Positions 10,955 to 28,699 of a DNA stretch of 34,050 nucleotides are shown piece after piece; the first letter of the stretch is position 1, and every line of letters starts with the position of its first letter. Under the pieces are notes generated by a model, which was not told where the DNA came from, made no database searches, and saw nothing but the letters and a program-made list of their open reading frames with translations. A program made the translations under genes and the position numbers. The DNA comes from Muribaculaceae bacterium Zag1 (GTDB lineage: Bacteria > Bacteroidota > Bacteroidia > Bacteroidales > Muribaculaceae): assembly GCA_002633115.1 (NCBI GenBank), contig NWBJ01000004.1:1-34050 (forward strand), written 5' to 3'.

Positions 10955-10965
10955 ATACTTAAAGT

Positions 10966-10990
10966 AATAGTGAATAGTGAATAGTGAATA
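10966..10990. repeat. Heptamer array between ftsA and ftsZ
   Basis: Three exact copies of AATAGTG (10966-10986) plus a partial fourth. The period is exactly 7 bp. Confidence 0.85.
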
Positions 10991-11036
10991 ACTATTAGAG
11001 AGGGGAGAGGATATTCAATATTCCCTATAATTTTGG

Positions 11037-12524
11037 TTAATTGTCATCGAGGTTGGCATCCTCATCATCGTTTGAGGCAGTCACTTGGTAAATCTTGGCT
11101 TTGAGCCAGTCGAGAGCCGATGAGCGTGGACGCTGCAGGCGTGCTTGCTCGCGCTCCTCCCGCTCACGCCTTTTCTGCTCCTCCTTAGCTCGCTTGGCAG
11201 CCTCTTTCTCGGCTTTGCGACGCATTGCGCGCTCACGACGCTCGTCAATTTGGGCATTCTCCTCGTCATCGTTGTCCCAGCCGTCATCGTTGTTGTCTTC
11301 TTCGTGGACAGGCGACGGGCCGGCTCCAAAAGCCGGCTTTTCCTCCAGGCTGATATCAGTGGGCTCGGGAGCCTTGACGCAACCGCCAACATCTGTAGTC
11401 TTTGAGGCTTGCAACACAATGGCCAAGAGCGAAGCGAAGTCGGCAGAATCGATGCCACGGTCTTGCACGGTGATAGTGTTGGGGATTGAGGCGCGGCGCA
11501 CCTTCATCTTGGTCTTGTTTTCAAGAGCCATGTCAAAATTGCGCAGCTTAGAGCCACGGCCAGTGATTATGATGCCGCCTGCCAAGTCGGTAGGCTTGAA
11601 TCCAGCATACCCAATCTGGGCATAGATGTTGGCATTGATTTCGCCAATGCGCGCTTGCACATAGCAATTGATTTTGGCATTCTCATCTGATGCCGATTCC
11701 ATAGAATCGGCCATAGCGTTGCCCTGATGGCATTTTGCCATCTCAGCACGCTCCTCGATGATATTGAGGCCCATAGCGATGTCGCGTGTTATATTCTGCG
11801 AACCAAGCGGCAGAGTGGCCAGATACTGCAGAGCACGGTCCTTGTAAATCGATATGGTAGTGGTCTGAGCGCCCATATCCACGAGCATGCAGCCCAATTG
11901 GCGCTCCTCTTGGCTCAACAGCAAGTCGGCCAGGGCCAACGGTGTCACCACATACTCGCGCACAGTGAGCTGCAGACGGTCGCCAAACAGCATCTCCAGA
12001 TTGCGCAGGTTGGCCTTGTTGCAAGTCACAACAGTGTATTCGCCCTTGAGCTTTGAACCCAGAGCGCCCACTGGATTAGGATTCACCTGGTTGTCAACAT
12101 AGAATTTGCGAGGCACTATCCTCAAGGGTTTCCTATCTGCATCAAATCCCTTAGCGGCCTCTTGTTCAAGCTGCTTAACTATGTTGGCGGTGATCTCCAT
12201 TTCACTGGGCAGATACAACTCGGCCGTGGTCTGGACTGAGCCAAGCGAACGACCGCTGATGCCCACATAAGCGGCAATGACTTTGCCGCCTTTGAGCTTG
12301 GGATCGTTCTCAAGTTTCTTCACCACATAATTAACATCCTTGGCAGCCTCTATGAGATTTTGCACACGGCCATACTGCACGCAATTTACCTTGTCCTCAC
12401 AGGCAATAGCCTCAACGACAGGAATTGCGAATTGCGAATAAGCGGGCGAAGAATTGATAGTGGCCGCAGCGCCTTTTACTTGCGAGCCTGAGAGCTCTAA
12501 TGCTATTATGTATCTATTGTCCAT
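11037..12524 (-). CDS. ftsA: Cell division protein FtsA, FtsZ membrane anchor
   Basis: A 495-residue actin-like ATPase that links FtsZ to the membrane. I start at 12524 (MDNRYIIALELSGSQVKGAA), where the first beta hairpin of the fold begins; the longer frame from 12563 would translate the upstream heptamer repeats. CMLVDMGAQTTTISIYKD is the phosphate-2 segment of the actin fold and GGIIITGRGSKL the adenosine motif. After about residue 415 there is an acidic linker and a long, highly charged stretch (RRERAMRRKAEKEAAKRAKE, then more Arg/Glu/Lys), ending with an amphipathic region near ALDWLKAKIYQV. The charged extension is longer than in E. coli FtsA (420 residues) and seems typical of the phylum. 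The C-terminal helix would be the membrane-binding part. Confidence 0.96.
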   Translation of the reverse strand: MDNRYIIALELSGSQVKGAAATINSSPAYSQFAIPVVEAIACEDKVNCVQYGRVQNLIEAAKDVNYVVKKLENDPKLKGGKVIAAYVGISGRSLGSVQTTAELYLPSEMEITANIVKQLEQEAAKGFDADRKPLRIVPRKFYVDNQVNPNPVGALGSKLKGEYTVVTCNKANLRNLEMLFGDRLQLTVREYVVTPLALADLLLSQEERQLGCMLVDMGAQTTTISIYKDRALQYLATLPLGSQNITRDIAMGLNIIEERAEMAKCHQGNAMADSMESASDENAKINCYVQARIGEINANIYAQIGYAGFKPTDLAGGIIITGRGSKLRNFDMALENKTKMKVRRASIPNTITVQDRGIDSADFASLLAIVLQASKTTDVGGCVKAPEPTDISLEEKPAFGAGPSPVHEEDNNDDGWDNDDEENAQIDERRERAMRRKAEKEAAKRAKEEQKRREREEREQARLQRPRSSALDWLKAKIYQVTASNDDEDANLDDN

Positions 12525-12525
12525 A

Positions 12526-12629
12526 AACAAGTCAAAAGTAACAAGTAACAAGTCAAAAGTCAAAAGTCAAAAGTAAAGAGGAGAAGTTAGAAGTAAAGAG
12601 TCAAAAGTGATAAGTCTAGAGTGATAAAT
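12526..12629. repeat. Heptamer array (NNNNAGT) between ftsQ and ftsA
   Basis: Starting two bases from the ftsA start codon, nearly the whole spacer divides into 7-bp units ending in AGT: AACAAGT, CAAAAGT (the commonest), TAGAAGT, AAAGAGT, GATAAGT and CTAGAGT. One slip occurs near 12575-12587. Confidence 0.85.
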
Positions 12630-25823: not shown

Positions 25824-25829
25824 TAGGGT

Positions 25830-28604
25830 TTATTTTACGACGATGTTGATGATCTTGTTGGGGACGACGATGACCTTAGTGATTGTCTTGCCTTCGAGCC
25901 ATTTGGCTGCGCCCTCATGGGCGAGAGCGGTGCGCTCTACCTCTTCGTTGGTTGAGCCAGCCGGCATCTGGATGTTGAAGCGAGCCTTGCCATTGAACGA
26001 CACAGCATAGTTGACTGAATCCTCCTTAAGGTAATCCTCATTATGCTTAGGCCACTGCGCATCACAGATAGTAGTGTCCTTGCCAACGGCCGAGTGCCAT
26101 AGCTCCTCAGTGACGTGCGGTGCGAACGGAGCCAACAGCACCAGCAGTTGTTCAAGCACCAGGCGCGAGTGGCATTTCTGCTGCGACAGCTCGTTGACGC
26201 ATATCATGAATGCGGCAACCGAGGTGTTGAACGAGAATGTCTCGATATCTCCAGTCACCTTCTTGATCAACTTATGGAGGCTCTTGAGGTTCTCCTTTGT
26301 TGGCTCTGAGTCGTCGACCAGGCAGGTGTCGCCCTTGTAGAAGAGCGCCCACAATTTCTTGATGAAGCGGTTCACGCCGTCGATGCCATTGGTATCCCAA
26401 GGCTTGCTCTGCTCGAGCGGACCGAGGAACATCTCATAGAGCCTGAGCGTGTCGGCGCCGTAGCGATCGACAATGTCGTCGGGATTGACTACGTTGAACA
26501 TCGACTTTGACATCTTCTCGACTGCCCAACCGCATACATATTTGCCATCCTCGAGTATGAACTCGGCATCGCGGAATTCAGGCCTCCAAGCGCGGAACTT
26601 GTCAAGGTCGAGCACATCGTTGCTCACGATGTTGACATCCACATGGATAGGAGTCACATCATACTGGTCTTTCAGTCCAGCCGATACAAATGTATTGGTA
26701 TCCTTGATGCGGTACACAAAGTTGCTTCGACCCTGGATCATGCCCTGGTTGATGAGTTTGCGGAATGGCTCATCCTCGCACACCAGGCCCAAGTCATAGA
26801 GGAACTTGTTCCAGAATCGGCTATATATAAGGTGGCCGGTAGCATGCTCGGTGCCTCCGATATACAGGTCGACATTGCGCCAATATTCATCAGCCTCCTT
26901 TGATACCAGAGCGTCATTATTGCGCGGATCCATATAGCGCAGATAGTAGGCCGAAGAGCCAGCGAAGCCCGGCATCGTATTCAGCTCTATCTGGTATCCC
27001 TGGGGCGTACGCCAGTTGGCAGCGCGCCCCAGCGGTGGTTCGCCGCTCTCGGTGGGCAGGAATTTATCAACCTCGGGCAGCAGCAGCGGCAGCTGGCTCT
27101 CATCCATCAGGGTAGGGATACCCTCCTTATAATATACTGGGAAAGGTTCGCCCCAGTAGCGCTGACGGCTGAAGATAGCGTCGCGCAGACGGAAATTCAC
27201 CTTGACCTTGCCAATGCCGAGCTCCTCGATGCGCTTTTTGGTAGCGGCGATAGCCTCCTTGACTGTAAGACCATTGAGGTCGAGCAGATCTGACGATGAG
27301 TTGCACACTATGCCTTCCTTGGCATCGTAGCTCTCCTCCGACACATCGGCTCCCTCGATAAGAGGAATGATAGGCAGGTCGAAATGCTTGGCGAAGGCGT
27401 AGTCGCGGCTGTCGTGAGCCGGAACTGCCATGATGGCACCGGTGCCATAACCGGCCAGTACGTAATCGCTCACCCATACGGGGATTTTCTTGCCGTTGAG
27501 CGGATTGATGGCATAAGCACCGGTGAATACGCCAGTCACTTTCTTGTCAATCATGCGCTCGCGTTCGGTCTTGCGCTTGGTGGCTGCCACGTATTCCTCC
27601 ACTGCCTGCTTTTGCTCGGGAGTAGTGATTTGGTCGACATAAGCGCTCTCAGGAGCGAGCACCATGAATGTCACGCCGAATACTGTATCGGCGCGAGTAG
27701 TGAAGATCTCAAGCTCTACATCGCTATCGGCAATTTTGAAACGCATCTCGGCACCCTCGCTGCGGCCGATCCAGTTGCGCTGTGTCTCTTTGAGCGAGTC
27801 AGTCCAATCGATAGTCTCCAGGCCATCGAGCAGACGCTGAGCATAAGCCGATACTCTGAGGCACCACTGGTACATCAGCTTTTGTTCGACCGGATAGCCG
27901 CCGCGTATCGACACGCCCTCGCTTACCTCATCGTTGGCAAGCACAGTGCCGAGCTTTGGACACCAGTTGACCATAGTGTTGCCCAGGTAAGCGATGCGAT
28001 AATTCATCAGGGTATCGCTCTTCTGCTTCTCGTCCATGGCTTTCCACTCATCGGCGGTGAAGTCAAGCTCTTTTGAGCAAGCCACATTCAGGCTCTTGCT
28101 GCCTTCCTTTTCGAAATGCTCGATAAGCTCAGAGATGGGGCGAGCGCTCTTGGTGTCGTAGCTGTAGTATGAGTTGAACATCTGCATGAACGCCCACTGG
28201 GTCCATTTGTAGTACTCCGGGTCGCATGTGCGTATTTCGCGATCCCAATCGTAGCAGAATCCGATTTTGTCGAGCTGCGAGCGATAGCGATTGATGTTCT
28301 GGGTGGTGGTCACCTCGGGATGCTGGCCAGTCTGGATAGCGTATTGCTCAGCCGGGAGGCCATAAGCGTCATAGCCCATGGGGTGGAGCACATTGAATCC
28401 GCACAGGCGCTTGTAGCGTGAGAAGATATCGCTGGCGATGTAGCCGAGCGGGTGCCCTACATGCAGACCTGCCCCCGAGGGGTAGGGAAACATGTCGAGC
28501 ACATAGAATTTGGGACGCGTCTTGTCGATGTCTACATTGTATGTGCGCTCTTCTTTCCAGCGCTGTTGCCATTTCGGCTCAATTTCTCTATGATTGTATT
28601 CCAT
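25830..28604 (-). CDS. leuS: Leucyl-tRNA synthetase
   Basis: A 924-residue class Ia aminoacyl-tRNA synthetase. The Rossmann-fold signature HIGH appears as HVGH (48-51) in [18 protein letters not shown]; the second signature KMSKS is at about 695-699 ([20 protein letters not shown]). Between them lie the editing domain ([39 protein letters not shown]) and the [14 protein letters not shown] segment ([16 protein letters not shown]). The C-terminal anticodon-binding part is complete ([11 protein letters not shown]). Length is slightly above the bacterial norm of about 860. It reads toward the dcw cluster but is separated from it by the palindrome-rich block. There is no T-box-like leader; the 95 bases upstream are heptamer repeats. 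Confidence 0.98.
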
Positions 28605-28609
28605 GATGG

Positions 28610-28686
28610 TTTTTGGTCTTTAGCTTTTGGCTTTTGGAAACATTACCAAAGGTTTTTGGCTTTTGGTTTTTGGAATTTGGTTTTGA
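28610..28686. repeat. Heptamer elements between nadA and leuS
   Basis: GGTCTTT-AGCTTTT-GGCTTTT-GGAAAC at 28615-28641 matches the element near ftsI in order as well as in period. A second array follows: GGTTTTT, GGCTTTT, GGTTTTT, GGAATTT, GGTTTTG (28651-28685). Confidence 0.85.
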
Positions 28687-28699
28687 AATAATGCCATTA

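Follow-up and report, generated by a model that had tools for sequence, protein, structure and literature searches.

Tandem arrays of 7-bp units, variable in sequence and often arranged as inverted pairs, are spread through the intergenic DNA of Muribaculaceae bacterium Zag1 (G000, 4.46 Mb). They had been noted in a 34,050-nucleotide stretch of this genome (contig NWBJ01000004.1, positions 1 to 34,050 of the forward strand; here called the window), which holds a division and cell-wall (dcw) gene cluster. An initial annotation, made from the letters of the window, had listed period-7 arrays in seven named spacers of the cluster, and Tandem Repeats Finder (TRF) and direct reading returned arrays in all seven, with the units as given. 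Arrays occur genome-wide; the cluster is rich in them, and the majority of spacers carry none. With moderate confidence we explain the arrays as the product of a recent, lineage-specific mutational process that combines slippage with fold-back template switching and is tolerated between genes, with no function of the exact sequence.

The excess of period 7 is evident well beyond the cluster. Across 1,069,446 bases, or 24% of the genome, a lag scan gave 88 arrays of period 7, 76 of which lie mostly outside called genes (crude open reading frames); among the remaining periods between 2 and 30 none exceeded 12 arrays, and periods 2 to 6 had no array. TRF (score at least 40) reported 253 arrays in a sample of 732,030 bases, with 65 at period 7, 33 at period 14 and 13 at period 21; from a single order-2 Markov copy of this sample it reported 17, three at period 14 and none at period 7. 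We also tested spacers of 40–900 bp individually, using a lag-7 caller and five order-2 Markov shuffles per spacer. At score 11 an array was called in 7 of the 18 window spacers (expected: 0.0), all seven within 10955–28699, and at the stricter score of 16 in 4 of 18. Outside the window, 71 of 450 spacers were positive at score 11, with 2.0 expected. Periodicity is thus absent from most other spacers, a result that the initial annotation had counted against its own proposal, but it is present at about 35 times the shuffle expectation. With arrays in 71 spacers elsewhere, a special tie to the cell-wall cluster is not supported.

The 88 arrays reduce to 20 consensus units, of which AATGAAA (listed as AAAAATG; 38 arrays), AGTCAAA (9) and CCAAAAA (8) are examples. 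A short anchor, AGT/ACT or GG, had been read in every unit. This description fits the cluster and fails genome-wide: since AGT/ACT is found in 26 of the 88 arrays and CC/GG in 11 others, the anchor is not a rule of the genome, and AATGAAA, the top family, has neither. A scan of all triplets for AGT as a fixed anchor, covering Zag1, the sister genome and 80 related loci, was judged to be confounded by base composition.

Comparison with the sister genome (G006, 4.1 Mb; sampled over 566 kb) indicates that the arrays change quickly. The two genomes are approximately 93–97% identical across the cell-wall cluster, and the genes flanking the compared arrays are 87–98% identical, but the arrays between these genes vary in presence, copy number or unit. 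Of 509 adequately flanked spacers, 93 could be paired with an ortholog from the G006 sample; to prevent double counting, loci L232–L246 were excluded on the G006 side here and in the core and array-pair analyses. Judged by the array threshold, 27 of these 93 spacers carry an array: 17 in both genomes, 8 in Zag1 only and 2 in G006 only. As far as we noticed, four of the ten one-genome spacers keep sub-threshold pieces of an array in the other genome (window 17235, L019 8999, L029 3832 and L179 7942). In 9 of the 17 spacers with arrays in both genomes the dominant unit differs. Three of these nine differences are, by eye, close variants within one family (L008, L030 8283, L184), and in another of the nine, the mraY–murE spacer, the Zag1 unit persists in G006. 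Clean indels of 3–60 bases are multiples of 7 in six of six cases within period-7 DNA and in 7 of 29 cases elsewhere in spacers.

The AATGAAA pattern, the one pattern covered by the genus-wide test, is abundant in 2 of 49 genomes (404 matches in Zag1 and 301 in G006, both strands); the other 47 contain one match in each of two genomes and none in 45. These 47 assemblies measure 1.8–2.9 Mb (some are incomplete, several are 99% complete), and the two array-rich ones 4.1–4.5 Mb. In 320 kb of cell-wall region from 17 other genomes (16 from the genus and one from the order) TRF reported no period-7 array, compared to 49 period-7 arrays among 198 in the G006 sample. Five arrays of period 21 are in the same set, and heptamers are visible as the building blocks of one of them, in L153; this array (12152–12191) belongs to a genus member, G014, and consists of CTAARRT-like units. 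Identical spacers in other species would have implied that the exact sequence matters, as the initial annotation pointed out; in the cell-wall region of the 16 other genus genomes no such conservation was found. Since the period is shared, the spacers change between relatives and the sequence is not conserved in this region, a process is a better explanation than an exact-sequence function. The earlier proposal of a process making 7-bp units therefore survives, carried by one period with several units genome-wide and by spacer change in relatives, and is shorn of its link to the cluster and of its AGT/GG rule.

At the level of the order, five consecutive AGTNNNN units are present in 237 of 393 genomes, and unit sets differ among the genomes whose matches were listed. 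Five copies of the octamer pattern AGTNNNNN are found in 118 of the 393, none of them Zag1, with matches that include period-4 runs. Because of these AGT octamers, 7 is not a universal unit length, and because a reversed-anchor control, TGA, is likewise frequent in both the heptamer and the octamer searches, AGT is not exclusive. Some genomes have more AGT-anchored octamer than heptamer matches (G077: 278 vs 3; G427: 630 vs 224). Period-7 arrays turn up sporadically in 80 named dcw loci, where AGTTAGG, AGTGACA and ACTCTCC are among the units; L043, from among the nearest relatives, has a TAAGAGT array.

A feature absent from the initial annotation is the frequent inverted pairing of arrays. 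Among 60 neighbouring pairs, pooled from both samples so that shared elements may count twice, 38 are inverted, 19 direct and 3 of different units, while random pairing of arrays gives 15% inverted, 14% direct and 71% different. Since neighbours are usually inverted copies of each other, many arrays form hairpins. Single elements illustrate how such arms may change together. At L027 (approximately 9599–9720) both arms are AATGAAA/TTTCATT in Zag1 and AGTGAAT/ATTCACT in G006, around a shared core, and L033 shows a similar paired change; several of the chained alignments used in such locus comparisons spanned only part of the matching stretch. The element at L030 (5088–5275) has two arms of 70 bases, with an ungapped palindrome score of 58, and these arms have in common a variant 14-mer that is absent elsewhere in both samples; at the corresponding site in G006 two genes touch with no spacer at all. 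A palindromic core, CCATCCGGATGG, forms the apex of hairpins whose stems are unrelated, some of them with a period of about 10. We counted 20 sites of this core in the Zag1 sample and 23 in the G006 sample, and whole-genome counts are 94 in Zag1, 75 in G006, 7 in G046, one in each of three genomes and none in 43.

Other hairpin families were seen alongside the heptamer elements. Long palindromes with arms like TCATAGAGG...CACAGAT and CCATCCGGATGG at the apex constitute a stem family distinct from the heptamers (L216, L220, L248, L259, L262, L263 and L266). Inverted arrays of ACGTAAGC-type units make up another (L018 18768, L173 15647 and L179 6018). Stretches resembling miniature inverted-repeat transposable elements (MITEs), in which inverted ends that match (TAAGTAAG...CTTACT) enclose inverted arms of period 10 (CACGGAGNNN), were found at L208 compared with L184 15428, as a G006 insertion within a heptamer array, and at L018 14449 compared with L209.

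A mechanism in four steps could produce these patterns. The data support unit slippage, in which an array lengthens or shortens by whole 7-base units as in replication slippage. In a second step, which is partly supported, fold-back of the strand or a template switch within the spacer would copy an array as its reverse complement and so create inverted pairs and hairpins; repetition of this step would re-match the arms, such that both arms of one element could acquire a different unit. Inverted pairs, paired arm differences and the shared rare variant speak for this step, and the order of unit variants does not. Template switching among similar arrays may then carry units between spacers, which would account for shared unit families and chimeric arrays. 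Finally, selection would purge arrays within genes and leave them mainly in gene-to-gene gaps.

Several points weigh against this explanation. The indel test is small, and period-7 DNA was chosen by the longer allele, which biases it towards multiples of 7. Mirror order of unit variants in 23 elements amounts to 0.937, barely above a same-family control (mean 0.911, maximum 0.941), so that the argument for arm-to-arm copying comes from single cases. Slippage leaves the presence of one unit at dozens of loci and the shared core CCATCCGGATGG unexplained. No enzyme change was found either: sbcD is matched in both Zag1 and G006, and we rejected loss of this hairpin nuclease as a cause. An origin by reverse transcriptase (PF00078) was likewise set aside, with no match in G006 at E 0.001 and weak matches in Zag1. 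Loss of mismatch repair was counted against solely by the lack of arrays at periods 2 to 6; repair genes were not searched.

The arrays could alternatively be arms of small non-autonomous mobile elements, that is, MITE-like hairpins or hairpins like repetitive extragenic palindromes (REPs), mobilized by a transposase in trans and later modified by slippage. We consider this origin possible rather than probable; the shared core and the clean insertions make it a rival to be taken seriously. CCATCCGGATGG tops hairpins with unrelated stems and has few copies outside the two array-rich genomes, insertions of 48 bp in G006 (L208 vs L184) and of about 190 bp in L030 (relative to the touching G006 genes) are clean, and the MITE-like insertion at L184 15428, with its period-10 arms, lies inside a heptamer array. 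On the other hand, copies vary in unit sequence, arm length and ends, and inspection by eye of L030, the single site covered, showed neither a target duplication nor constant terminal inverted repeats. Y1 transposases (PF01797), the only family searched, occur in 33 of the 49 genus genomes, 31 of these without the main array pattern, and are therefore not specific to repeat-bearing genomes as REPs and their associated tyrosine transposases (RAYTs) would lead one to expect. A dedicated or altered copying activity of Bacteroidales, one that sets the unit length of a lineage to 7 or 8, keeps an anchor such as AGT with variation at the remaining positions and copies arrays into hairpins between genes, is an unlikely alternative for which no candidate gene was found. 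The order-wide occurrence of AGT-anchored heptamers and octamers, the different unit sets in the genomes with listed matches and the predominance of 8 in some genomes (G077) speak for it; the common TGA control, the period-4 runs among the octamers and the many Zag1 units without AGT (most of them) speak against.

A selected function, whether as transcription terminators, as all-frame stop cassettes or as RNA hairpins located between stop and start codons, seems improbable to us for these arrays. Since the AATGAAA unit carries TGA in one reading direction, its arrays, by reading, close all frames within three units. Of the 56 arrays in tandem gaps, 24 overlap a stop codon or start no more than 6 nt from one, against 16.5 expected, and 21 end at most 6 nt from a start, against 14.8 expected; for the 40 arrays with at least 40 bp to spare the counts are 15 on the stop side and 9 on the start side, with 6.7 and 5.8 expected. 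Exact filling from stop to start appeared strong at first look and shrank to a modest excess after random placement: in 2000 such placements the maxima were 29 and 25, and the border counts for all 56 arrays do not go beyond what these placements gave. On the stop side of the roomy gaps the excess is larger. Convergent gaps, where intrinsic terminators should accumulate, are not enriched (7 of 79, against 45 of 373 tandem and 5 of 74 divergent gaps), and 10 of the 27 comparable array-bearing gaps are over threshold in one sister genome only. Turnover between the sisters and gene orientation thus disfavour function. Plain neutral slippage of simple sequence in spacers agrees with indels in unit steps and with the report that in many bacteria long simple repeats are most often heptamers (Mrazek 2007, cited in the accessible portions of PMC4679880 and PMC4692102). 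By itself it gives no inverted pairs, no paired arm changes and no units or cores shared across loci; already strained by the inverted pairs, it seems to us very improbable as the sole cause. An assembly or contamination artefact is contradicted by two separate assemblies with arrays at the same spacers, for example ftsZ–ftsA, and we can practically dismiss it. Nothing in its favour was found; runs of N are present in or near a few arrays (e.g., L030).

The window contains ftsZ and ftsA-, murC-, murG-, ftsW/rodA-, murD-, mraY- and murE-type genes together with a class B penicillin-binding protein gene, rsmH, leuS and nadA. Scores for the ftsA, murC, ftsW and penicillin-binding protein assignments lie under the curated cut-offs, and the genes at the ftsQ and ftsL positions have no match in NCBIfam. 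The closest named records for MraY (75% identity) are from uncultured Bacteroidales, one of them labelled Muribaculaceae. Near the left end of the window is a period-32 tandem repeat of 3.4 copies (257–365).

The spacers of the cluster had been described as filled with repeats. Arrays are present, but they occupy only part of the space, for example 25 of 82 bp between ftsZ and ftsA, where 3.6 copies of AATAGTG (10966–10990) recur as the same array in G006. Between the ftsQ-position gene and ftsA, a mixed AGTCAAA/AGTAACA/AGTAAAG/AGTGATA array (12524–12622) differs from that of G006 in its 7-bp units, with one extra and one fewer. The murG–ftsW spacer combines an AGTTATG array (15941–15972) with an adjoining inverted element (15984–16059), whose arms of period 8/16 (CCTTTGCTCCTTTGTG; 15984–16015 and 16029–16059) contradict the claim that the period is always 7. 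This element is missing from G006, which has an AGTCAAA-type array and another hairpin in this spacer. Between ftsW and murD a GC hairpin core, GAAATAACCCCTACGGGGTATCTCAGA (17505–17531), separates 5.4 copies of CTTATTA (17456–17493; not in G006) from an ACTTTTG array that overlaps the murD stop codon (17533–17565; partly kept in G006); this spacer has approximately 85 additional bases relative to G006. By eye, similar cores lie between arrays at L039 and beside arrays at L003. The AAGTGAT array of the mraY–murE spacer (20165–20186) is kept in G006, and the short AGTCAAA run next to it (20206–20222) is 35 bp, or five units, longer there. In the spacer between the penicillin-binding protein gene and the ftsL-position gene, a GTTTTTA/GGTTTTT array on the side of the former (23898–23924) and its GGTATTT/GGTTTTT continuation (23936–23958) form the first arm of a CCAAAAA-type hairpin, with a CCAAAAA/AAAGACT array (24009–24039) as inverted arm; G006 has AGTCAAA-type repeats instead. 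The leuS–nadA spacer, which lies beyond the end of the G006 contig, contains a weak TGGCTTT/GGTTTTT array (28607–28637) and a second array of GGTTTTT type (28651–28685). Arrays in leuS–nadA, mraY–murE and ftsI–ftsL are the weaker ones. TRF reported a further array, TTTTAGTATTTGGT, at the right end of the window (34021–34047), beyond the region annotated initially. Inside 10955–28699 the spacers 21689–21730 (42 bp), 25347–25829 (483 bp) and 13228–13481 are free of arrays, the last being a product of the crude gene caller.

In the literature searched, which included few subscription papers, we found no description of hairpin elements in which both heptamer arms differ between sister species, none of unit length 7 or 8 as a lineage trait, and no paper that combines tandem heptanucleotide repeats with Bacteroides. 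A sister pair with many unit families at one period, together with relatives using 8, offers a comparative test of a conjecture, cited in the accessible portions of PMC4679880 and PMC4692102, that the preference for 7 reflects the length of DNA touched by the polymerase. Fast-changing hairpins inside essential gene clusters may also help to tell strains apart and provide natural test cases for template switching.

By tandem copies beyond chance (88 arrays; 65 by TRF vs none in the shuffled copy) and by whole-unit length change between relatives (six of six indels in a small, biased sample), the arrays qualify as long heptanucleotide simple sequence repeats. REP/RAYT and MITE elements are dispersed palindromes in spacers; for the Zag1 elements we noticed no constant ends and found no lineage-specific Y1 transposase. 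The short tandemly repeated repetitive (STRR) sequences of cyanobacteria are likewise tandem heptanucleotides. Three tandem heptanucleotides are mentioned for Calothrix (PMC4692102, accessible portions). Heptamer spacer repeats are already known elsewhere, and the closest precedents, as far as the accessible portions of the two papers go, are the GGGAATC repeats of Xanthomonas (PMC4692102) and TAACTGA (PMC4679880).

In the accessible portions of Rehm et al. 2015 (PMC4692102), heptamers GGGAATC/GGGANTN of Xanthomonas and GGGGA(C/T)T of Nostoc are described, with 186 repeats and 70 inverted-pair cases in Xcc. Common to these and the Zag1 arrays are heptamers with fixed and variable positions, a mostly intergenic location, frequent inversion (38 of 60 neighbouring pairs here) and extensive variation in length and sequence between sister species. 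One G-rich unit type is studied there as a quadruplex former, whereas many AT-rich units coexist in Zag1, and GGG or CCC occurs in none of its consensus units (20 in all); palindromic cores and individual elements with both arms changed between sisters are further differences from what those portions describe. MacGregor 2015 (PMC4679880), again as far as accessible, reports TAACTGA and other intergenic heptamer direct repeats in scattered lineages, including five Bacteroidetes, so that the phylum is not without a description as the initial annotation had supposed. The same portions mention 7-nt steps for most indels between close Cyanothece strains and mixtures of heptamers, within one genome in Microcystis and within individual spacers in Gramella, Aequorivita and Elizabethkingia. 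The genome at the centre of that study has one dominant unit, mostly just upstream of start codons, and one indirect repeat; in contrast, inverted pairs are common here, and TAACTGA is not one of the 20 consensus units into which the 88 arrays fall. Template switching has been described to make and repair hairpin stems (PMC8794818), and the accessible portions of the quasipalindrome studies (PMC8794818, PMC7202029, PMC8604942), which do not treat tandem heptamer arms, describe a process that likewise yields reverse-complement copies and homogenises inverted arms.

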